Made by a program: the position numbers and the translations under genes. Below the pieces are notes generated by a model. It saw only the letters and a list, made by a program, of their open reading frames with translations, ran no database searches and was not told the DNA's origin. Shown piece after piece: positions 6,081 through 58,072 of a stretch of DNA of 64,000 nt; the first letter of the stretch is position 1; each line of letters starts with the position of its first letter. The stretch spans positions 1 to 64,000 of the forward strand of contig NZ_JABCSC020000007.1 in the NCBI RefSeq assembly GCF_012972705.2, read 5' to 3'. The stretch is from Uliginosibacterium aquaticum (GTDB lineage: Bacteria > Pseudomonadota > Gammaproteobacteria > Burkholderiales > Rhodocyclaceae).

Positions 6081-7997
6081 TCAAGCCTCGGCGCCACGGC
6101 TTTCCAGCTCGTGTTGCCAACGCTCAGCCAATTCCGTGATGGACATTTGCCCCAGATCCTGACCGCCCCGGACGCGCACTGCGACCTTGCCGGCTTCTTT
6201 TTCCTTGTCGCCTACGACAAGCAGGTAGGGTAGCTTTTGCAAGCTATGTTCGCGGATTTTATAGGTAATTTTCTCGTTCCGCAAATCCGATTCGACACGA
6301 AAGCCCTTGGCGCGCAACTCTGCCACAACTTCTTGCACGTAATCGGCCTGCCCTTCGGAGATGTTCATCACCACCGCATGAGTCGGCGCCAACCACAAAG
6401 GGAAGGCGCCGCCATGATTTTCGATCAGGATGCCAAGGAAACGCTCAAGCGACCCAAGGATCGCGCGGTGCAGCATCACAGGACGGTGGCGGGCGTTGTC
6501 TTCAGCAACGTATTCGGCACCAAGGCGCTCGGGCAGCACGAAATCCAGCTGAATCGTGCCGCACTGCCAGGAGCGCCCCAGCGCATCCTTGATGTGATAC
6601 TCGACCTTGGGGCCATAGAAGGCGCCTTCGCCCGGCAATTCCTCCCACTCCTTGCCGGAAGCCTTGAGCGCCGCGCGCAGACCGTCTTCAGCCTTATCCC
6701 AAGTAGCATCGGAACCGGCACGTTTTTCAGGACGCAAAGCCAGTTTCACAGCCACATTATTGAAGCCGAAATCCTTGTACACACTCATCAGCAGCGCGTC
6801 GAAATCGGTTGCCTCGGACTCGATCTGATCTTCTGTACAGAAGATATGTGCATCATCCTGCACGAAGCCGCGCACGCGCATCAGGCCATGCAGCGCGCCA
6901 GACGGCTCGTTGCGGTGACAGGAACCAAACTCAGCCAGGCGCAGTGGCAAGTCGCGGTAGGAACGCAGGCCGTGGTTGAAAATCTGCACATGACCCGGAC
7001 AGTTCATCGGCTTCACCGCGTAGTCGCGCTTTTCCGACTCGGTGGTAAACATGTTGTCGCGGTAGTTTTCCCAGTGACCGGACTTCTCCCACAAGGTGCG
7101 ATCCATCACCATCGGCGTACGCACTTCCTGATAGCCCGCAGCATTCAGACGTGCGCGCATGTACTGCTCGACTGCCTGCCACAGAGTCCAGCCCTTCGGA
7201 TGCCAGAACACCATACCTGGCGCCTCATCCTGCAGATGGAAGAGATCAAGCTGCTTGCCAACACGGCGATGGTCGCGCTTTTCCGCTTCTTCCAACATGT
7301 GCAGATAGGCTTCCAGCTCTTCCTTCTTGGCCCAGGCCGTACCGTAGATACGCTGCAACTGCTCATTCTTGGCGTCACCGCGCCAGTAAGCGCCCGCCAC
7401 TTTCATAAGCTTGAAGAACTTGAGCTTGCCGGTAGAAGGCACATGCGGGCCGCGGCACAAGTCGATGAAATCACCTTCTCGGTACAAGGAAATGGTCTGA
7501 CCTGCCGGGATCGCAGCAATCAGCTCGGCCTTGTACTTTTCGCCCAGCCCAAGGAAGAATTTGACCGCCTCATCACGATCCCACTCTTCCCGGCTGATGC
7601 CGATATCCTTCTTGGCCAGCTCAGCCATGCGTTTTTCGATGGCAAGCAGATCTTCCGGCGTAAAAGGGCGGGAGTAGGCAAAGTCGTAATAGAAACCATG
7701 TTCGACCACCGGACCGATAGTGACCTGGGCTTCCGGGAACAGCTCTTTCACTGCATAGGCCAACAGGTGGGCCGTGGAGTGGCGGATAACTTCGAGACCA
7801 TCCGCATCCTTCTCGGTCACGATCGCCAGCTTTGCGTCAGCAGCCATCACATGCGAGGTATCGACCAACTGGCCATCAACCTTGCCAGCCAGCGCAGCCT
7901 TGGCCAGACCAGCGCCAATCGAGGCCGCAACCTGGGCAACCGAAACCGGTGCCTCAAAACTGCGGACGGAACCATCAGGGAGGGTGATATTCGGCAT
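6081..7997 (-). CDS. thrS: Threonine--tRNA ligase
   Basis: Class II threonyl-tRNA synthetase, 638 residues as in other bacteria. A TGS domain (1-62) is followed by the editing domain with [18 protein letters not shown], the catalytic core with the zinc cysteine in MNCPGH and motif 2 [10 protein letters not shown], and the C-terminal anticodon-binding domain. It is the first gene of the infC operon; infC begins 28 bases after its stop, and that gap holds the infC ribosome binding site. Confidence 0.98.
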
Positions 7998-49504: not shown

Positions 49505-50245
49505 ATGGCTGACATCCAGCCGGATAGAAAAACCAGGGCAAGCGGCACGAATCGGGTGGACACCGTCTACACCGGCATCGTGGAAGCCATGTCCAACGGA
49601 GACTTCCCGGAAAACGCGCGTCTGCCGACCGAAGCCGAGCTGGCACTGCAGTACGGCGTCTCCCGCCCGACCGTGCGTGAAGCACTTTCCCGTCTGCGTC
49701 TGGATGGCCTGATTGCCTCCAAGCGCGGCTCCGGCAGCTATGTACTGCGCCGCCCGGATCGCAATATCAAGCGCTTTGCCCCGATCGAAAGCATTGCCGA
49801 CGTGCAGCGCTGCTTCGCCTTCCGCATCGCGCTGGAAGCGTCCGGAGCCAGCCTCTCGGCCGAAATGCGTACTCCGCGTGATCTGGACGACATCCGGCGC
49901 TGTTTCGATGCGATGGAAGCTGCACGCAATCAGGACGACAACATCGCCTTCGTCGAACACGACCTGCAGTTTCATCTCGCCGTCGCGCGTGGTTCGCAGA
50001 ACGTTTTCTTCGTCACGGCGCTGGAACTGATCATCGAGCAGATGCGGGTGGGCATGCAGTTGGCGCTGAATCTCTCGCTCGAACGCGAACGCGTGTGGCG
50101 TGAGCTGGTGCAGATTGAGCACCGCGAGATCCTCACCGCAATCGAAAAGGGCTCCTCGGTCGATGCAGCCGAGGCGATGCGTTTTCACCTCGGCAACGCT
50201 CGCCGCAGACTGTTTGAAGGCCCCGCTCAGAAGACCTCCGGATAA
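49505..50245 (+). CDS. GntR-family regulator, FCD (FadR-type) subfamily
   Basis: A 246-residue transcription factor. The winged helix at about 18-85 has LPTEAELALQYGVSRPTVRE. The C-terminal FCD domain (about 95-235) carries the metal/ligand residues in the pattern EHDLQFHLAVARGS and a late His in HREILTAIEKG and MRFHLGNARRR. Ligands of this group are usually organic acids or sugar acids. The TRAP transporter genes follow directly and a palindrome lies between, so it is the likely local regulator. ATG 49505 has AGGAGG 6 bases upstream. Confidence 0.93.
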   Translation: MADIQPDRKTRASGTNRVDTVYTGIVEAMSNGDFPENARLPTEAELALQYGVSRPTVREALSRLRLDGLIASKRGSGSYVLRRPDRNIKRFAPIESIADVQRCFAFRIALEASGASLSAEMRTPRDLDDIRRCFDAMEAARNQDDNIAFVEHDLQFHLAVARGSQNVFFVTALELIIEQMRVGMQLALNLSLERERVWRELVQIEHREILTAIEKGSSVDAAEAMRFHLGNARRRLFEGPAQKTSG

Positions 50246-50251
50246 GCGCGG

Positions 50252-50280
50252 GTCAGGTGTTGCTCAAGGGCAACACTGAC
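50252..50280 (+). terminator. Hairpin after the GntR gene
   Basis: GTCAGGTGTTGC (with one bulge) pairs with GCAACACTGAC; it starts 7 bases after the stop. It may separate the regulator from the transporter transcript. Confidence 0.45.
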
Positions 50281-50310
50281 ATCGCACCCGAAGGGTATGG
50301 CATCGAAAAC

Positions 50311-50333
50311 ACGATATCCCCCGGTGATATCGT
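50311..50333. promoter_or_regulatory. Candidate operator of the TRAP operon
   Basis: A perfect interrupted palindrome, ACGATATC-N7-GATATCGT, lies 126 bases before the first TRAP gene and just after the GntR/FCD gene. Its size and symmetry fit a dimeric FadR-type regulator, though it does not match a named consensus I can cite. Confidence 0.5.
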
Positions 50334-50458
50334 CGTAGCACCCCGCTCAGGCGGTATGGATTCCGATCCGCATCACCTGTGAGGGCTGGTTTCAGGAGAT
50401 GGACGGCCCCGGCCGGACGTTTTTTGTTTTGTTGGTCACTATCAGGAGACACACGATA

Positions 50459-51427
50459 ATGCGTACATCAAAGCTGGCAGCAGTACTGGCCACGGCGATT
50501 TTCGCCGCCGCCCCCGTAGCAGCCGTGGAAATCAAGGCCGCTGACGTCCACCCCGAGGGCTACCCGAACGTGGTGGCCATGCAGAATCTGGGCAAGAAGC
50601 TTGAAACCCAAAGCAAGGGCAAATACACCCTGAAGATGTTCCCGGGTGCCGTTCTGGGCGATGAAAAGTCCATGATCGAGCAGACCCAGGCAGGCGGCAT
50701 CGACATTCTGCGCACCTCGCTTGGCCCGCTGGGCCCGGTGGTGCCGGAAGTGAACGTGTTCAACATGCCCTTCGTGTTCCGTGACGAAGCTCACATGCGC
50801 AAGGTGATCGACGGCCCGATCGGCGACGAAATCCTTGCCAAGATCAGCGCCAGCTCCGCCAAGCTCGTGGCACTGGGCTGGATGGACGGCGGCACGCGCA
50901 ACCTGTACACCAAGAAGCCGGTGCGCAAACCGGCTGACCTGGCTGGCCAGAAGCTGCGCATGATGGGCAACCCGCTCTTCATCGACACCATGAACGCCAT
51001 GGGCGGCTCGGGCATCTCGATGGGCTTCGGCGAACTCTTCAGCGCCATGCAGACCGGTGTGGTTGACGGTGCCGAAAACAACGTGCCGACCTATGTGACG
51101 CAGAACCACTTCACCGTCGCCAAGTACTACGACCTGACCGGCCACCTGATCATTCCCGAAATCTTCGTGTTCTCGAAGGCCAAGTGGGAAAAACTGACCC
51201 CGGAAGACCAGGCTCTGATCAAGAAGCTGGCCAAGGAAGCTCAGTTTGAGCAGCGCGCCCTGTGGGACAAGCGCGTCACCATGGACTCCGCCCGCCTCAA
51301 GGCTGCTGGCGTGACCATTGTGGCCGACGTCGACAAGCAAGCCTTCTACAAGGCCACCCAACCGGTGCGTGACAAGTACGGTGCCCAGTTCGCCGACCTG
51401 ATCAAGCGCATCAACGACGTCAAGTAA
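50459..51427 (+). CDS. TRAP transporter substrate-binding protein (DctP family)
   Basis: Periplasmic binding protein of 322 residues with a signal peptide (1-22, ending APVAA). DctP hallmarks: FPGAVLGDEKSMIEQTQAGG, the YTKKPVRKPADLAGQKLRMM block with the substrate-binding Arg, and QTGVVDGAENNVPTY. The family binds organic acids; the early DVHPEGYPNVVAM run and the neighbouring pectin genes suggest uronic or aldonic acids, an inference only. A terminator-like stem after the gene would favour high expression of this subunit over the permeases. Confidence 0.93.
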   Translation: MRTSKLAAVLATAIFAAAPVAAVEIKAADVHPEGYPNVVAMQNLGKKLETQSKGKYTLKMFPGAVLGDEKSMIEQTQAGGIDILRTSLGPLGPVVPEVNVFNMPFVFRDEAHMRKVIDGPIGDEILAKISASSAKLVALGWMDGGTRNLYTKKPVRKPADLAGQKLRMMGNPLFIDTMNAMGGSGISMGFGELFSAMQTGVVDGAENNVPTYVTQNHFTVAKYYDLTGHLIIPEIFVFSKAKWEKLTPEDQALIKKLAKEAQFEQRALWDKRVTMDSARLKAAGVTIVADVDKQAFYKATQPVRDKYGAQFADLIKRINDVK

Positions 51428-51443
51428 TACCGCTGCACCAAGG

Positions 51444-51477
51444 AACTGGCGGGTCTGCCCGGCCCGCCAGTTTTTTT
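51444..51477 (+). terminator. Intercistronic terminator between dctP and dctQ
   Basis: Stem CTGGCGGG / CCCGCCAG followed by T7, 17 bases after the SBP stop and 23 bases before the dctQ start. A partial terminator here would give excess binding protein over the membrane subunits. Confidence 0.8.
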
Positions 51478-51500
51478 GCGGCCTTTTGGAGCAAGTAGCA

Positions 51501-52040
51501 ATGAAAGATACGTACTGCAAGGCAATGGATGCGGTGTATTGGCTCTGCATCTGGATTGCCGGTCTGGCCATGGTGGTCATGACCCTCGTCATCCCGGTTC
51601 AGGTGGTTGCCCGCAAGTGGTTCGATTCCGGCCTCTCCTGGCCTGAGCCGATGGCCCTCATGTGCATGATCATCTTTACCTTCGTCGGCTCGGCTGCGGC
51701 CTATCGCGCTGGTTCGCACATCGCTGTGACCATGCTCACCGATCGCCTGCCCCCCCAAGGCAAATACATCTTTGCCCGCATCGTCGACCTGCTGATGGCC
51801 CTCGTGGCCCTCTTCGTGATCGTCTACGGCACCGACCGTGTGCTCTTCTTCATGGAAACCGGTCAGACGCTTGCCGACTTCACCCAGATTCAAGTGAGCT
51901 GGACTTACCTGCCCCTGCCCATTGGCTCGGCGGCAACCCTGCTTTTCATCATCGAATCCTTCTTCTTCGGCTCCCAGCACCATCGCCCGATCGTCACGAT
52001 CGGCAGCCATGGTGGCAGCGCTGAAGATTCGACCAACTAA
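51501..52040 (+). CDS. TRAP transporter small permease subunit (DctQ family)
   Basis: A 179-residue membrane protein with four helices (about 12-35, 48-68, 88-110, 128-152). The conserved QVVARKWFDSGLSWPEPMAL and RAGSHIAVTMLTDRLPP are typical of DctQ. It joins the large subunit to form the transporter. A GGAG box precedes the ATG at 51501; dctM starts 10 bases after its stop, with AGGAG overlapping the stop codon. Confidence 0.92.
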   Translation: MKDTYCKAMDAVYWLCIWIAGLAMVVMTLVIPVQVVARKWFDSGLSWPEPMALMCMIIFTFVGSAAAYRAGSHIAVTMLTDRLPPQGKYIFARIVDLLMALVALFVIVYGTDRVLFFMETGQTLADFTQIQVSWTYLPLPIGSAATLLFIIESFFFGSQHHRPIVTIGSHGGSAEDSTN

Positions 52041-52050
52041 GGAGCCCGTC

Positions 52051-53622
52051 ATGGATTCTGCAATCATCATGGGCATCTTCTTCCTGCTGCTCGCAGTAGG
52101 ACTGCCCGTCGCTTACACCCTGGGGCTCACTGCCATGTTCGGCGCGATCTATTTCGCCGGCGACATGAGCTACATGACCACCATCATGCTCAAGATGGGT
52201 GACGGGGTGAACAAGTTCAGCCTGCTCGCCATTCCCTTCTTCGTGCTGGCTGGCGCCATCATGGCCGAGGGCGGCATCGCCACCCGCCTGATCAACTTCG
52301 CCTCGATCTTCGTGGGCTTCATCCGCGGCGGCCTGTCGCTGGTGAACATCCTTGCCTCCACCTTCTTCGGCGCCATTTCCGGCTCTTCCGTGGCGGATAC
52401 CGCCTCGATCGGCTCGGTGATGATTCCGCAGATGGAAAAGCACGGCTACCCGCGTGACTACGCAGCCGCCGTCACGGCATCCGGTTCGGTGCAGGCAATC
52501 CTGATCCCGCCCAGCCACAACGCCGTGATCTACTCGCTGTATGTGAGCGGCGCCTCGATTCCGGCGCTGTTCCTGGCTGGCGTGGTGCCGGGCCTCACCC
52601 TGTGTATCACCCTGATGGCGCTGTGCGTGTTCTTCGCAGCCAAGCGCGGCTATCCGAAGGGCGAAATGCTCACCGTGAAGCAAGCCGCCAAGCAGGCCTT
52701 CGATGCCATTCCCGGCCTGTTCACCGTGGTGATCATCCTCGGCGGCATCCTCTCCGGCCTCTACACGGCCACGGAATCAGCCGCCATCGCCTGTGTGTGG
52801 GCCTTCCTGGTCACCATGTTCGTGTACCGCGACTACAAGTGGAGCCAGCTGCCGGTGCTTGTGCACCGCACCGTGAAGACCGTCACCATCGTGATGATCC
52901 TGATCGGCTTTGCTGCAGCCTTCGGCCAGGTGCTCACCATCCTGTCGATCCCGGCGACTATCTCGGCCTTCTTCACCGGCCTCTCGGACAACCCGATCGT
53001 CATTCTGCTGGCCATCAACGTCCTGCTGCTGATCCTCGGCACGCTGATGGATATGGCCCCGCTGATCATGATCATGACCCCGATCCTGTACCCGGTTGTT
53101 GCCCCGCTCGGCATCCACCCGGTGCACTTCGGCATGATCATGATGGTGAACCTGGGGATCGGCCTGATCACCCCGCCGGTGGGCTCCGTGCTCTTCGTGG
53201 CGAGCGCTGTATCGGGTCGCAAGATGGAGCAGGTCACCAAGGCCATGGCCCCCTTCTTTGTTGCCCTGTTCACCGTGTTGATGATGGTGACCTATCTGCC
53301 CCAGCTTTCGCTGTGGCTGCCTACCGCAGTGGGTGAGCTGAACGCGGCCCCGACGGTGGTGGACGATGCTGGCAAGACCGCCAAGGGTCAGCCGGTGAAG
53401 ATCGAGGCGCTGAAGAACGACTCCGACAAGGAAAACAATCCGCTCATGATCGAAGAAACCAAAGTGCTGGAAGGCCAGGGCACGGTGGATTTCGACGAGA
53501 ACGGTATTGTTACCTTCACCCCGGCCGCCGACTTCGCCGGCACCGCCGTGGTCCAGTACCAGGTGACGGACTTCCTCGGCGGCAGCACCAAGGGCAAGAT
53601 CACGATCACGGTTGCCCCCTGA
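52051..53622 (+). CDS. TRAP transporter large permease subunit (DctM family) fused to a C-terminal Ig-like domain
   Basis: A 523-residue protein. Residues 1-425 are a normal DctM: FAGDMSYMTTIMLKMGDGVN, then AISGSSVADTASIGSVMIP and GLITPPVGSVLFVASAV, with about 11-12 helices that use an ion gradient. After the last helix (YLPQLSLWLP) the chain continues with about 90 extra residues (432-523): APTVVDDAGKTAKGQPVKIE, NDSDKENNPL, GIVTFTPAADFAGTAVVQYQ and VTDFLGGSTKG. This is an Ig-like/cadherin-like repeat as in large adhesins (Big_9/VCBS type). DctM C termini are expected in the periplasm, so the domain would face outward. A strong terminator follows. Confidence 0.93.
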   Translation: MDSAIIMGIFFLLLAVGLPVAYTLGLTAMFGAIYFAGDMSYMTTIMLKMGDGVNKFSLLAIPFFVLAGAIMAEGGIATRLINFASIFVGFIRGGLSLVNILASTFFGAISGSSVADTASIGSVMIPQMEKHGYPRDYAAAVTASGSVQAILIPPSHNAVIYSLYVSGASIPALFLAGVVPGLTLCITLMALCVFFAAKRGYPKGEMLTVKQAAKQAFDAIPGLFTVVIILGGILSGLYTATESAAIACVWAFLVTMFVYRDYKWSQLPVLVHRTVKTVTIVMILIGFAAAFGQVLTILSIPATISAFFTGLSDNPIVILLAINVLLLILGTLMDMAPLIMIMTPILYPVVAPLGIHPVHFGMIMMVNLGIGLITPPVGSVLFVASAVSGRKMEQVTKAMAPFFVALFTVLMMVTYLPQLSLWLPTAVGELNAAPTVVDDAGKTAKGQPVKIEALKNDSDKENNPLMIEETKVLEGQGTVDFDENGIVTFTPAADFAGTAVVQYQVTDFLGGSTKGKITITVAP

Positions 53623-53661
53623 TCGATCCCCGCTAAACCCGGCTGCGGCCGGGCAGCGCCC

Positions 53662-53698
53662 AAAAGCAAAACCCCCGGTCTCCGGGGGTTTTGCTTTT
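53662..53698 (+). terminator. Strong terminator after the TRAP operon
   Basis: A perfect 17-bp stem: AAAAGCAAAACCCCCGG, loop TCT, CCGGGGGTTTTGCTTTT. It works on either strand. Confidence 0.9.
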
Positions 53699-53847
53699 TG
53701 GGGCCCCCATTCCGCTACGGCCTGCTTGCACCAGGCACAGCGTCCCGCGACACCTGGGCTCACCAGCCCTCGCCCACAGCAACCAACTTCCTTGCGCAGC
53801 TGAGCGCGCGCACCACACCCAAACCAATGCAGCAGAGCTGCCCTATC

Positions 53848-53862
53848 GCACTACTTCAGTGC
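53848..53862. promoter_or_regulatory. NtrC-type enhancer site
   Basis: GCAC-N7-GTGC (GCACTACTTCAGTGC), the core of the known NtrC consensus, centred about 98 bases upstream of the predicted sigma-54 transcription start. This is the normal distance of an NtrC enhancer. Confidence 0.55.
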
Positions 53863-53926
53863 TGCGCAGTTTCAAACGCATCTCCTGCTCTACCTCAAAC
53901 CATTGAAAGATAAAGCCCTGTGCGTC

Positions 53927-53942
53927 TGGCACAAATGCTGCT
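53927..53942 (+). promoter_or_regulatory. Sigma-54 promoter of nirBD
   Basis: TGGCACAAATGCTGCT matches the -24/-12 consensus (TGGCAC-N5-TTGCW with one change) with the exact GG-N10-GC spacing (GG 53928-53929, GC 53940-53941). Predicted start of transcription near 53953, about 205 bases before nirB. Confidence 0.65.
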
Positions 53943-53953
53943 AGCGATCATGC

Positions 53954-54002
53954 GTCCGCCTGCAACGTAGTAGCGGACATATTGCCTCCGCCAACGACGG
54001 CG
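53954..54002 (+). promoter_or_regulatory. Tandem hairpins matching the ANTAR-protein RNA target
   Basis: Hairpin 1: GTCCGC, a bulged C, TGC, loop AACGTA (53964-53969), GTA, GCGGAC. Hairpin 2, after a 10-base linker: CGCC, loop AACGAC (53993-53998), GGCG. Both loops are six bases with A at position 1 and G at position 4, as in the leader RNAs bound by the ANTAR antiterminators NasR and NasT. It would begin almost at the predicted transcription start. Confidence 0.7.
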
Positions 54003-54003
54003 A

Positions 54004-54048
54004 AATCCGGGCCTCTCTCTTTATCGAGAGTCAGAAGCCCGGTTATTC
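54004..54048 (+). terminator. Terminator-like stem in the nirBD leader
   Basis: CCGGGC (54007-54012) pairs with GCCCGG (54037-54042); inside, CTCTC (54015-54019) pairs with GAGAG (54026-54030) around TTTATC. It is followed by the U-rich but short TTATT. In ANTAR-controlled leaders such a terminator follows the second hairpin, as here. Confidence 0.55.
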
Positions 54049-54158
54049 CAACCCGACAAAGCGCCGCGTTCTGCGGGGGCCTTCATGTACGTGCCGCTTC
54101 AAAGCCTGGCACGCGATGATTTGCACAAGCCTCCGAAGCCGGTCGTGCGAGATCCAAC

Positions 54159-56690
54159 ATGAAGATAGTCATTATCGGCCACGGCATGGTGGGCCATAAA
54201 TTCCTGGAAGAACTGCATCAGCTCCAGGTACCGGATATCGAAGTCACCGTCCTGTGCGAAGAGCCCAGGCCTGCCTACGACCGGGTTCATCTTTCTGAAT
54301 TCTTCGCCGGCAAGAGCGCTGAGGACTTGTCGCTGGTTGAGGAAGGCTTCTTCGAACGCAGCGGTTTCTCGCTGCGCCTCGCGGCCCGGGCCGTTGCCAT
54401 CGACCGTCACAATCGCACCGTCACCACGCTCGACGGTGAGCTGCTGCCCTACGACAGGCTGATCCTCGCTTCGGGCTCCACGCCTTTCGTACCACCGGTG
54501 CCAGGGCGCGAGCGGGCGCATTGTTTCGTCTATCGCACCATTGAAGATCTGCAGGCCATGCAGGCCAGCGGTGCGCAATCGCGCGTCGGGGTGGTAATCG
54601 GTGGTGGTCTGCTGGGGCTGGAATGTGCCAAGGCTCTGCGCGATCTGGGACTGGAAACACATGTCGTGGAGTTTGCGCCGCGCTTGATGGCGGTACAGGT
54701 CGACGAAGGTGGCGGACGCGTCTTGCGCGCCAAGATCGAGGCGCTGGGCGTACATGTGCATACCAGCCGCAACACGCTGGAGATCGTTGAGGGCGAGCAT
54801 GCCCGGCACCGCATGAACTTCTCGGATGGCTGCTCGCTGGAGACGGACATGATCGTGTTTTCAGCCGGCATCCGCCCCCGCGACGAGCTCGCCCGGCAGT
54901 GTCAGCTGGAGATCGGCCCGCGCGGTGGCGTAGCGATCGATAGCGTCTGCCGCACCAGTGATCCGGCCATCTTTGCGATCGGCGAGTGTGCGGCCTGGAA
55001 TGAACAGGTCTTTGGCTTGGTGGCGCCCGGCTACGACATGGCCCGCGTGGCGGCCCGCTATATCGCCGGCCAGGAACAGGTGGCCTTCGTGGGCGCCGAC
55101 ATGAGCACCAAGCTCAAACTGATGGGCGTCGATGTTGCCAGCATCGGGGATGCCCATGGCAAGACGCCGGACTGTCGCAGCTACCAGTACGTGGATGAAC
55201 GCCGTCAGGTCTACAAGAAGATCGTGGTCAGTGAAGATGGCAAGCAGTTGCTCGGTGCCGTGCTGGTGGGCAATGCCGACGAATACGGCACGCTGCTGCA
55301 GATGGCGCTCAATGGCATCACGCTGCCCGCCGATCCGGAATTCCTGATCCTCCCCTCGAGTGATGGCAAGGCCAAGCCCGGCCTCGGTGTGGAGGCCCTG
55401 CCGGAAACCGCCCAGATCTGCTCCTGCAACAACGTCAGCAAAGGGCAGATCTGTGCAGCCGTAGCTGCGGGAGCCTGCAGCATCGGCGAACTCAAGGCCT
55501 GCACCAAGGCCGGCGCCACCTGTGGCGGCTGCGTGCCGCTGGTCACCCAGGTAATGAAAGCCGAAATGGCTCGCCTCGGCATGGCCGTCAACAACCACCT
55601 TTGCGAGCACTTCCCGCACTCCCGTCAGGAGCTCTATCACCTGGTCCGGGTCGGCCAGATCAAATCCTTTGGCGAACTTCTGGCCCGCCACGGCAAGGGG
55701 CTGGGCTGCGATATCTGCAAGCCTGCCGCCGCCAATATCCTGGCTTCGTGCTGGAACGATTTTGTGCTCCAGCCCGAGCTGGCCAGCCTGCAGGACAGCA
55801 ATGACTACTATCTGGGCAACATCCAGAAAGACGGCAGCTATTCCGTTGTACCGCGCATGCCTGGCGGCGAGGTAACGCCTGACGGCCTGATCGCCGTGGG
55901 ACAGGTCGCCAAGAAATACGGCCTCTATACCAAGATCACCGGAGGACAACGCGTCGACCTTTTCGGTGCACGTGTCGAGCAACTTCCCCTGATCTGGGAA
56001 GAGCTGATCGAAGCCGGCTTTGAATCCGGTCATGCCTACGGCAAGTCCCTGCGCACGGTGAAAAGCTGCGTCGGCTCAACCTGGTGCCGCTACGGTGTCG
56101 ATGACAGTGTCGGGCTCGCAGTGGAACTGGAGAACCGCTACAAGGGCCTGCGCGCGCCGCACAAGATCAAATTTGGCGTCTCTGGCTGTACACGTGAATG
56201 CGCCGAAGCCCAAGGCAAGGACGTAGGCATCATCGCCACGGACAAGGGCTGGAACCTCTATGTGTGCGGCAACGGCGGCATGAAGCCGCGTCACGCCGAA
56301 TTGATCGCTTCAGACCTGACAAAGGCCGAGCTGCTCCGCCTGATCGATCGCTTCCTGATGTTCTACGTGCGCACGGCAGACCGCCTGCAACGCACCAGCA
56401 CCTGGCGCGAAAACCTCGAAGGCGGCCTGGCGTATTTGAAGGAAGTGCTGATCAAGGACTCCCTCGGCATTGCTGCCGAGCTTGAAGCCCAGATGCAACA
56501 TGTGGTGGATACCTACCAGTGCGAATGGAAGACGGCCATTTCCGACCCCGAAACCCGCAAGCGCTTCCGCTCCTTCGTCAATAGCGAACAAGCGGACCAA
56601 AGGATCGTTTTCGTGCAGGAACGCGGCCAGATCCGCCCGGCCCGTCCTGAAGAACGCGTCCAGACCTCAACTGACGGCAGCCCAGCCTGA
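54159..56690 (+). CDS. nirB: Assimilatory nitrite reductase (NADH) large subunit
   Basis: Reduces nitrite to ammonium in the cytoplasm with NADH. 843 residues. FAD/NAD domain at 1-410 (IVIIGHGMVGHKFLEEL, then VVIGGGLLGLECAKALRDLG). A BFD-like [2Fe-2S] domain at about 420-480 has CSCNNVSKGQICAA and CTKAGATCGGC. The C-terminal siroheme/[4Fe-4S] domain has VKSCVGSTWCRYGVDDSVGL and FGVSGCTRECAEAQ, the four cluster Cys. nirD follows 17 bases later. The long leader holds nitrogen-control elements. No nitrate reductase or nitrate transport gene is adjacent. Confidence 0.97.
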   Translation: MKIVIIGHGMVGHKFLEELHQLQVPDIEVTVLCEEPRPAYDRVHLSEFFAGKSAEDLSLVEEGFFERSGFSLRLAARAVAIDRHNRTVTTLDGELLPYDRLILASGSTPFVPPVPGRERAHCFVYRTIEDLQAMQASGAQSRVGVVIGGGLLGLECAKALRDLGLETHVVEFAPRLMAVQVDEGGGRVLRAKIEALGVHVHTSRNTLEIVEGEHARHRMNFSDGCSLETDMIVFSAGIRPRDELARQCQLEIGPRGGVAIDSVCRTSDPAIFAIGECAAWNEQVFGLVAPGYDMARVAARYIAGQEQVAFVGADMSTKLKLMGVDVASIGDAHGKTPDCRSYQYVDERRQVYKKIVVSEDGKQLLGAVLVGNADEYGTLLQMALNGITLPADPEFLILPSSDGKAKPGLGVEALPETAQICSCNNVSKGQICAAVAAGACSIGELKACTKAGATCGGCVPLVTQVMKAEMARLGMAVNNHLCEHFPHSRQELYHLVRVGQIKSFGELLARHGKGLGCDICKPAAANILASCWNDFVLQPELASLQDSNDYYLGNIQKDGSYSVVPRMPGGEVTPDGLIAVGQVAKKYGLYTKITGGQRVDLFGARVEQLPLIWEELIEAGFESGHAYGKSLRTVKSCVGSTWCRYGVDDSVGLAVELENRYKGLRAPHKIKFGVSGCTRECAEAQGKDVGIIATDKGWNLYVCGNGGMKPRHAELIASDLTKAELLRLIDRFLMFYVRTADRLQRTSTWRENLEGGLAYLKEVLIKDSLGIAAELEAQMQHVVDTYQCEWKTAISDPETRKRFRSFVNSEQADQRIVFVQERGQIRPARPEERVQTSTDGSPA

Positions 56691-56707
56691 CACCAGGAGT
56701 AAGCCCC

Positions 56708-57046
56708 ATGACAAACAGCACCCAGCAATGGACCACCGTTTGCGCAGTCAGCGACATCCTGCCCGACACTGGAGTCTGCGCCCTAATCAACGACCAGCAC
56801 ATCGCGATCTTCCGGGTTGGTCAGGCGCAGTTCTACGCCATCGACAATATCGACCCCCAATCCGGCGCTAGCGTACTCGCGCGCGGTCTGGTGGGCAGCT
56901 TCGGCGAGCGTATTGCGGTGGCCTCGCCGCTTTACAAAAACCACATCGATCTGCGCAGCGGCGAATGCCTGGAAAACCCAGCCTACTCAGTGCGTGCCCA
57001 TTCCGTGCGCGTCGAGAACGATCACGTGCAGATCGCTGTGACCTGA
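56708..57046 (+). CDS. nirD: Assimilatory nitrite reductase small subunit
   Basis: A 112-residue Rieske-fold protein, partner of NirB. The sequence WTTVCAVSDILPDTGVCALI and IAIFRVGQAQFYAIDNIDPQ are characteristic. The cluster-binding Cys/His residues of true Rieske proteins are absent, as usual in NirD. It lies 17 bases after nirB and ends at an intrinsic terminator. Confidence 0.95.
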   Translation: MTNSTQQWTTVCAVSDILPDTGVCALINDQHIAIFRVGQAQFYAIDNIDPQSGASVLARGLVGSFGERIAVASPLYKNHIDLRSGECLENPAYSVRAHSVRVENDHVQIAVT

Positions 57047-57073
57047 GTCGCAGCGCCCCACCCCCAGACAAAC

Positions 57074-57102
57074 AAAAAGGACATGCATGCCATGTCCTTT
57101 TT
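57074..57102 (+). terminator. Terminator after nirD
   Basis: Stem AAAAAGGACATG / CATGTCCTTTTT with a 5-base loop, 27 bases after the nirD stop. Confidence 0.88.
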
Positions 57103-57231
57103 GCCTTAACCACCACTGGCAAGCCCAGGATCGAGCCTGAAGTCCCATTGCGTCCAGCACGGCGTGGCCCCTGCGAATTCGCACTTGAGTCGCTAAGTGC
57201 TTAGATTTATCCAAGCACTGACCTACAAAGC

Positions 57232-57261
57232 AAAAAGCCCAGTCTTTCGACCGGGCTTTCT
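57232..57261 (-). terminator. Terminator of initiator tRNA
   Basis: Stem AAAGCCCAGTC / GACCGGGCTTT (one mismatch) around TTTC. On the minus strand it leads into TTTTTGC, 12 bases past the tRNA end. Confidence 0.8.
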
Positions 57262-57273
57262 ACTGAAGGTATT

Positions 57274-57350
57274 GGGTTGCGGGGACAGGATTTGAACCTG
57301 TGACCTTCGGGTTATGAGCCCGACGAGCTGCCAGACTGCTCCACCCCGCG
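57274..57350 (-). tRNA. Initiator tRNA-fMet (anticodon CAT)
   Basis: 77 nt with anticodon loop CTCATAA. The C1-A72 mismatch at the acceptor end and three G-C pairs in the anticodon stem (GGG/CCC) mark it as initiator. The genomic 3' end reads ACCC rather than ACCA, so the final A must be added. Confidence 0.93.
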
Positions 57351-57829
57351 TCAGAGAAGAATCATTATGTACGTTAGTTCTTAATGAGTCAAGAACTAAT
57401 TTGAAGAGACTGCCATAACATGGGTTTTTTGAAGGATTTCCTTGCCAGAAGATGCTCGATCTGGCGAACACGACAGCCGTATGGATAGCAGCAAGGAAGC
57501 CCTAACGCCTTAGAGGCTGTTCAAGATCTGTAGCGAGAGGCCGTCAGCAGGGTGAAGAGCAGTACAGGAACCGGAGTTAATGTTGGTCAATTAGGATTCC
57601 GAGCAGCGTATGAGCTCTGATCACGGCCTCGCAGTAAGTCGTGAGTAGCTTCTTACATCTTCCTGCGAAGCCCTCCCCTCAATCCACCCGGACTGCAAAC
57701 TTTGCGCCCCATCTACCTTGACCAAAACTGCTGCCAGCAATAACCACAAGTAGTGTAAGCCGCGTAATTTCAAGCAGACATCAGTAGCAAGCACGCATCT
57801 GACATTCATGCCAGGCCCCAGCCAAGCGT
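57351..57829. other. AT-richer gap without a recognisable gene
   Basis: About 480 bases between two tRNA genes, both on the minus strand. It holds one perfect palindrome, TTAGTTCTT-N8-AAGAACTAA (57374-57399), which could be an operator or a stem. Base composition is lower in G+C than the rest. A run GAGGCTGTTCAAGATC near 57513 resembles ends of some insertion sequences, but no matching end or transposase is visible. Confidence 0.4.
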
Positions 57830-57863
57830 AAAAAAAGCCAGTCTCTCGACTGGCTTTTTTTTT
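57830..57863 (-). terminator. Terminator of the lysC-tRNA cluster
   Basis: Perfect stem AAAAAAGCCAGTC / GACTGGCTTTTTT around TCTC, with T runs on both strands, 10 bases past the last tRNA-Arg. Confidence 0.88.
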
Positions 57864-57872
57864 ACTTAAACT

Positions 57873-57949
57873 TGGTACACCCAGAGCGATTCGAACGCCC
57901 GACCCCCTGGTTCGTAGCCAGGTACTCTATCCAGCTGAGCTATGGGTGC
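57873..57949 (-). tRNA. tRNA-Arg (anticodon ACG), copy 2
   Basis: 77 nt; anticodon stem CCTGG/CCAGG with loop CTACGAA (anticodon ACG, A34 is normally changed to inosine). CCA encoded. It is identical to the copy at 57996-58072, 46 bases upstream. Confidence 0.95.
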
Positions 57950-57995
57950 AAAACCCGTAAAACCAATCTTACTGAAGATTAGCTTCACCACTTAT

Positions 57996-58072
57996 TGGTA
58001 CACCCAGAGCGATTCGAACGCCCGACCCCCTGGTTCGTAGCCAGGTACTCTATCCAGCTGAGCTATGGGTGC
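57996..58072 (-). tRNA. tRNA-Arg (anticodon ACG), copy 1
   Basis: Same 77-nt sequence as the copy at 57873-57949. The two stand in tandem after tRNA-Ser in the lysC transcription direction. Confidence 0.95.

Follow-up and report, generated by a model that had tools for sequence, protein, structure and literature searches.

The nitrite reductase operon nirBD of Uliginosibacterium aquaticum raises the question of whether its expression is controlled twice, at the promoter by nitrogen limitation and in the leader of the transcript by nitrate or nitrite. The window analysed is a stretch of 64,000 nucleotides (positions 1 to 64,000 of contig NZ_JABCSC020000007.1), and all coordinates below are those of the window unless a different locus is named. 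An initial annotation, made from the letters of this stretch, had placed an NtrC site, a sigma-54 promoter and an ANTAR-type antitermination RNA within the 200 bases upstream of nirB. The promoter region and the genes comprise the following features.

53848-53862, plus strand: NtrC-type site GCAC-TACTTCA-GTGC (GCAC-N7-GTGC), 79 nt upstream of the sigma-54 site, by direct reading
53927-53942, plus strand: sigma-54 promoter TGGCACAAATGCTGCT, with exact GG-N10-GC spacing
53952-53953, plus strand: predicted transcription start, placed from the -24/-12 spacing
54159-56690, plus strand: nirB, large subunit of NADH nitrite reductase (TIGR02374, above the cut-off)
56708-57046, plus strand: nirD, small subunit (Rieske_2)

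Direct reading confirms both promoter elements, including the exact spacing between GG and GC. CTGCT, the -12 element, differs from TTGCT by a single base, and the string TGGCACN6TGCT has a single exact occurrence on the two strands of the 64 kb window, namely at 53927-53942. The nirB product matches TIGR02374 with 1116.6 bits (cut-off 578.35), and an NtrC gene is present in the genome (692.5 bits, over the cut-off). The gene at 51922-53622 encodes the large subunit of a TRAP transporter (DctM) with a C-terminal bacterial Ig/cadherin-like domain (Big_9, Cadherin_5), and the fusion of such a domain to an inner-membrane permease is, to our knowledge, unusual.

A transcript initiated at about 53952 would have the first of a series of hairpins (H1, from 53954) at its 5' end. 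The proximal part of the leader is organised as follows.

53954-53978, plus strand: H1, the first ANTAR-type hairpin, 9 bp with one bulged C, by direct reading and fold
53979-53988, plus strand: linker between H1 and H2, 10 nt, the final 5 nt of which (GCCTC) are part of the competing helix described below
53989-54002, plus strand: H2, the second ANTAR-type hairpin, 4 bp, with the hexaloop AACGAC at 53993-53998
54007-54042, plus strand: P3, a stem-loop with the tail UUAUUCC, the terminator of the initial annotation
54002-54006 with 54045-54049, plus strand: P3 base, GAAAU with AUUCC, 4 of 5 positions paired, covarying in relatives

The two hexaloop hairpins and the 10-base linker between them are borne out by reading and by folding. 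Both loops begin with A and have G as their fourth base (A1/G4), and both are closed by a C-G pair, C[AACGTA]G in H1 (loop at 53964-53969) and C[AACGAC]G in H2; the linker fits the range of approximately 5-12 nt given for Enterococcus faecalis eut, a range that several relatives exceed. The second stem is indeed 4 bp long: the fifth pair is lost through a single base (GGCGAA), and the 4 bp and an isolated U-A are left. In relatives, the commonest form of H2 has 6 bp (TCCGCY/GGCGGA), and the fifth pair is kept as C-G in 36 of 38 aligned rows; judged from the alignment, the short second stem of the window is a local loss. The RNA from 53951 to 54050 folds at -38.6 kcal/mol (z -3.97), with H1, H2 and P3 all present together. 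A search of 50000-58000 against Rfam 15, with E up to 5, returned no ANTAR-type match.

Each of these elements taken singly could be a product of chance. The two-hairpin pattern with C-G closing pairs is found twice in the window, both strands counted together, against 1.05 occurrences per dinucleotide shuffle (20 shuffles), and the NtrC pattern with 2 mismatches is found 12 times, against 13.4 expected; because these counts approximately equal those in shuffles, neither the hairpin pair alone nor the NtrC pattern alone is significant, and the significance rests on order, spacing and conservation. These were assessed in 88 nirB loci, i.e. those of the best 80 of 587 confirmed relatives (named genomes), six from this genome and its kin, one of which is the window itself, and two plasmid records; the fractions among the 88 loci are valid for close relatives only, and one locus (L058) has just 6 nt of sequence upstream of nirB. 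A locus was counted as leader-positive when it contained, within 320 nt of nirB, H2 and a sigma-54-like site agreeing with the consensus at 9 or more of 12 positions, and 55 of the 88 loci (the best 80 of 587 relatives plus 8) are of this kind. A chance resemblance without function, for which the shuffle-like frequency of the hairpin pair could speak, is scarcely credible given that order, spacing and sequence are conserved in these 55 loci, across many genera.

A first hairpin with A1/G4 is also present in 42 of the 55 leader-positive loci, a set obtained by leaving out 12 loci that lack such a hairpin and one reversed locus (L004). Removal of four near-identical leaders gives alignment A1 of 38 rows. 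The rows were picked for A1/G4 and for at least 3 bp, so the pairing counts of H1 in this alignment partly reflect selection, and the test to rely on is the unselected one, in which the best hexaloop hairpin between the promoter and H2 was taken from each leader irrespective of its loop sequence: A1/G4 appears in 36 of 55 leaders, compared with an expectation of 1 in 16 if bases were equal. When the loop length was left free, the best-scoring first hairpin had a loop of 6 nt in 21 and of 4 nt in 22 of the 55 leaders, and in 20 of the latter 22 it is the same hairpin with an extra pair between positions 1 and 6. H2 picked by its arms only (first match per locus) is found in 66 of 87 loci, with A at position 1 of the loop in 50 and G at position 4 in 60 of the 66. 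The closing pairs in the 38 aligned rows are C-G in 25 and U-G in 13 for H1, and C-G in 15 and U-G in 23 for H2.

The spacing relative to the promoter is similarly narrow, the first loop beginning 36-42 nt past the T of the sigma-54 site in the 42 leaders (median 39). Of 54 leaders (one of the 55, with short upstream sequence, was left out), 23 have an exact GCAC-N7-GTGC site in the 180 nt upstream, against 0.6 expected from shuffles. Loss of the A1/G4 loops in close relatives, which would speak against the initial annotation, is seen in part, as G4 is kept and position 1 varies in the nearest kin: both loops start with G in G006, a genome of the same genus (GTCGAT, GATGAC), and the second loop does so in G032 (GACGAC). 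Three loci with NirB 77, 77 and 62% identical (L006, L007 and L008, respectively) have neither such a sigma-54-like site nor H2 within 400 nt of nirB.

A covariance model of the nirB leader family (R1), which is not a model of ANTAR RNAs at large, scores the nirB leader in its own genome at 53.5 bits, with the next match at 21.6. It matches 19 of 200 genomes of one family and, under stricter filters that lose weak matches, 2 of 250 genomes of the order, this genome included; the leader is rare in the order at large. As a general ANTAR RNA model, R1 was rejected, as it fails to find the nas leader of the same genome (see below). On the sequence comparison, then, the conserved ANTAR-type leader behind the NtrC/sigma-54 promoter is real.

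The element that opposes H2 appears to differ from the one initially proposed. P3 had been taken for a terminator; the stem and the shortness of its U tract (UUAUUCC) stand, and the role of a competing terminator finds no support in that form, P3 and H2 being formed together in the fold. The predicted competitor lies farther downstream.

54062-54080, plus strand: anti-H2 segment, for which a pairing with 53984-54002 (GCCUCCGC, AACG, CGGCG) is predicted that would exclude H2

The match spans both arms of H2 and AACG of its loop. For the RNA extended to 54095, the fold with the anti-H2 helix has -60.0 kcal/mol, compared with -51.9 kcal/mol for the fold with H2, a difference of 8.1 in favour of the former; for a slightly longer RNA, the anti-H2 fold is better by 5.9 kcal/mol. 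The two predicted folds are mutually exclusive. Where the 5' arm of H2 reads CCTCCGC, its complement GCGG[AG]GG is found downstream in 30 of 33 leaders, against 0 of the 22 leaders without this arm, and the duplex with the downstream region has a mean z of -2.3 in the CCTCCGC class and -0.05 in the others, in a comparison that ignores phylogeny. When transcripts ending 55 and 105 nt after the loop are compared, the mean predicted P(H2) falls from 0.84 to 0.19 in the 33 CCTCCGC leaders, from 0.78 to 0.42, a smaller drop, in the other 22, where the 7-mer is absent, and from 0.44 to 0.00 in the window. With the final 60 nt shuffled as a control, P(H2) is 0.68 in the 33 leaders (the observed value is lower in 28 of the 33), 0.62 in the 22 others (lower in 13 of the 22) and 0.25 in the window. 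In the consensus fold of alignment A2, which holds 29 of the 30 leaders with both 7-mers (L035, near-identical to L034, was left out), the long-range helix is absent, H2 is kept and a local 4-bp hairpin covers the anti-H2 segment; because the rows were selected for both 7-mers, the long-range helix is without covariation of its own.

P3 might nevertheless be a weak intrinsic terminator, ending in UUAUUCC, that is prevented by ANTAR binding to H1 and H2, the anti-H2 pairing being secondary. P3 with its tail is the top terminator-like element of the window leader (best score -22, against -53 for shuffles), in 43 of 55 leaders the best terminator-like element scores above the mean of its 8 shuffles, and the P3 base, which shares sequence with the 3' arm of H2, shows covariation: 93.7% of its cells are paired, and two of its pairs have changed on both sides, compared with 38-62% in slid controls (two helices together), the commonest form being GGAAC:GUUCC and that of the window GAAAU:AUUCC. 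The coexistence of H2 and P3 in the minimum-energy fold of the window speaks against termination at P3, as does the score, which is far under those of L075 and L086 (22.6 and 28.5), and the P3 helix as aligned, which pairs in 73% of cells and whose covariation is reached by 60 of 500 shuffles, appears only moderately supported. Termination at P3 is thus a possibility of rather low probability. The main excluder of H2 is predicted to be the anti-H2 segment at 54062-54080, mainly not P3, with the P3 base predicted to compete with H2 as well, as a weak extension.

Terminator scores above -1 occur in only four of the 55 leaders (L075, L078, L084 and L086), which carry a strong intrinsic terminator, GGCCCCGACCGA...GGGGCC with a T-rich tail, shortly after H2 and without overlapping it. 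A good U-tract is absent from the window both after P3 (UUAUUCC, a poor one) and after the anti-H2 segment (CUUCAU), and is usually lacking in the leaders. The absence after anti-H2 would also fit a switch that acts after elongation, through translation of a short upstream frame or through RNA decay rather than termination, and the CTTCATG that follows anti-H2 opens a frame of 25 codons (54085-54162), the stop of which overlaps the start of nirB (ATGA). A switch of this type is quite improbable, considering that, by eye, neither the start nor the length of the frame is conserved among the leaders read, and that, in the portions of the literature seen, the ANTAR proteins of nitrate assimilation act on termination. 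A conserved leader peptide was rejected, since none is conserved, by eye, among the leaders read.

The ANTAR protein on which the initial reading depended is present in the genome and is of the NasT type. It is the product of the single ANTAR gene in the genome (completeness 99.78%), a REC-ANTAR protein of 192 aa with ANTAR and Response_reg matches of 74.1 and 31.7 bits, respectively, and at what we take to be its usual phospho-acceptor position it seems to have N (INTESP). The more specific expectation of nasR or a nasST pair failed. No NIT-ANTAR protein (NasR) is encoded in the genome at this completeness, the sole ANTAR match being NasT, and no nasR lies 3' of nirD in the 64 kb window; a cytoplasmic NasS was not recognisable in a genome search with an NrtA-like protein, which a very diverged NasS could escape. 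The genome encodes two NrtA/NasS-like proteins, both with twin-arginine-like export signals by eye. The nasT cluster contains, by homology, genes for a nitrate-type ABC transporter and for an MFS transporter, as well as another nirB-like gene, which is 38% identical to nirB of the window. NasT is the only candidate ANTAR partner found in this genome.

In relatives, the partner appears to be different. In 17 of the 88 loci, nirB is followed within approximately 1.2 kb, on the same strand, by a NIT-ANTAR-like gene resembling that of Ideonella. All 17 are leader-positive and 16 have an A1/G4 H1, whereas such a gene is present in 0 of the 30 leader-negative loci whose flank is long enough (Fisher 1.2e-4, uncorrected for phylogeny). 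In a Dechloromonas locus (L080), such a gene is upstream of nirB rather than downstream. Both the NIT and the ANTAR domain were confirmed in 7 of 10 proteins checked, including those of G032, G006, Azoarcus (L199) and Ideonella (L116); the remaining three are two REC-ANTAR proteins and an NrtA-like protein (L114). Because NIT-ANTAR genes accompany leader-positive loci, the leader seems in many genomes to be a target of NasR. An ANTAR gene is present in all 19 genomes of the family sample that match R1, compared with 161 of 200 overall. The mere presence of an ANTAR gene was dropped as a discriminator, as one is found in 47 of 49 leader-positive genomes searched (the two exceptions are MAG records) and in 28 of 28 leader-negative ones.

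The two nearest leader-bearing kin genomes, G032 and G006, both have NasR, as the single ANTAR protein in G032 and together with NasT in G006, and this genome has NasT alone. The leader could, accordingly, be a relic, a former NasR target that decays after the loss of NasR, with the nitrate response gone; the fifth pair of H2, broken here, would fit such decay, and the NasT-side leader of the genus differs in appearance, its linker being 4 nt long and its hairpin GGAC[AACGGC]GTCC. Against decay stand the A1 and G4 kept in both loops, the C-G closing pairs, the 10-nt linker and a P3 base pair in which both bases are replaced (C-G to T-A), all of which give little sign of free drift. A relic is on balance unlikely.

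A second ANTAR-type leader of the same genome lies between nasT and a nitrate transporter gene (L002, positions 6230-6700, minus strand; G000:C6). It has a sigma-54 site with an exact GCAC-N7-GTGC 93 nt upstream, the paired A1/G4 hairpins AGCC[AAAGAT]GGCT and TGGAC[AACGGC]GTCCA with a 4-nt linker (found by eye and not listed by the pair-finding script), and a U-tailed terminator that ends in GGCGCCGTTTTCTTTT and takes in the second hairpin. Because this nas leader has all the parts, the two-layer design is used in textbook form elsewhere in the genome. In six kin loci, the 520 nt after nasT contain sigma-54 sites in L230, L231 and L232, exact NtrC-type sites in L231, L232 and L235, and a hairpin pair with a terminator in L234; the same interval of L228 has no sigma-54 site, NtrC-type site, or hairpin pair with terminator. 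Three nirB leaders of Paraburkholderia/Burkholderia (L092, L110 and L112) have a hairpin of another sequence, GGAC[AACGGC]GTCC. In L092 and L110, a complementary GGGACGC segment and then a T-run come after it, an arrangement that resembles the nas leader of this genome.

The preferred reading, which we regard as probable, is a two-layer switch for nirBD that combines an NtrC/sigma-54 promoter with a leader read by an ANTAR protein and opposed by the anti-H2 competitor. The initial claim that both layers act on nirBD is supported by their joint conservation in 55 of the 88 loci and by the presence of NtrC and ANTAR genes, its weak point being P3 as the competitor. Under nitrogen limitation, phosphorylated NtrC would bind at 53848-53862 and activate the sigma-54 promoter, and the RNA would start at about 53952, directly at H1. 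An ANTAR protein activated by nitrate or nitrite would bind both hexaloops and so hold H2; this protein would be NasT here, the only one found, and a NasR-type protein in many leader-bearing relatives. When the ANTAR protein is not bound, H2 would be displaced once 54062-54080 has been transcribed, anti-H2 pairing with the two arms of H2 and with part of its loop and closing a domain around P3. We infer that the transcript would then be aborted within the leader, by weak intrinsic termination or by Rho, the latter being a guess from the poor U-tracts.

The predicted competitor is atypical and the partner situation in this genome is unusual. A wider proposition, which is offered tentatively and is more doubtful than the switch itself, is that the nirBD leaders of betaproteobacteria form a family in which a long-range mirror segment, and not a U-tailed terminator, opposes the ANTAR-held hairpin, with attenuation by Rho or elongation arrest, and that in this genome the leader has switched masters, from NasR to a NasS-free NasT. 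The switch for nirBD would extend two-layer control, by nitrogen limitation at the promoter and by nitrate or nitrite in the leader, to nirBD of Variovorax, Acidovorax, Aquabacterium, Zoogloea, Thauera, Azoarcus and their kin. The predicted RNA switch has named pairing partners and is open to testing, and the genomes with NasR only, with NasR and NasT, and with NasT only, around a common leader, amount to a natural test of the matching of ANTAR proteins and RNA.

Klebsiella nasF is under NtrC/sigma-54 control and stands at the head of an operon for nitrate assimilation whose terminator is intrinsic, whereas the nirB leader here has a predicted long-range anti-H2 competitor. The accessible text on the nasF leader of Klebsiella oxytoca (NasR) likewise describes two hexaloop hairpins, A1/G4 and a C:G closing pair (PMC7496416). 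The targets of EutV in Enterococcus faecalis, and the ANTAR RNA motif described in Ramesh 2012, similarly have a dual hairpin, loop rules and, in eut, a linker of 5-12 nt, according to the parts of that paper available (PMC3369931); the operon and the sensor differ from those of the nirBD leader. Two-hairpin ANTAR targets, with the loop rules, the linker and the terminator overlap, are thus already published, to judge from the same partial texts (PMC3369931, PMC7496416), and one of them (PMC3369931) mentions motif matches in front of nitrite reductase genes and also in Burkholderia. From the available part of a study of Azoarcus olearius, nirB is induced in diazotrophic growth and a knockout of ntrBC lowers the expression of assimilatory nitrate reductase (PMC8467165). 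The literature searched, consisting of titles and abstract openings and including few subscription journals, contains no description of a betaproteobacterial nirB leader of this kind. The closest likeness, drawn from description and not from sequence, is the nirBD leader nalA of Pseudomonas aeruginosa and P. putida, for which the available text of a review gives the same operon, a sigma-54/NtrC promoter and antitermination by NasT (PMC12830290); Pseudomonas uses NasS-NasT, whereas here NasT occurs without a recognisable NasS and many relatives have the NasR type. The nirBD leader of the window belongs to the kind already known from Klebsiella nasF and Pseudomonas nirBD.
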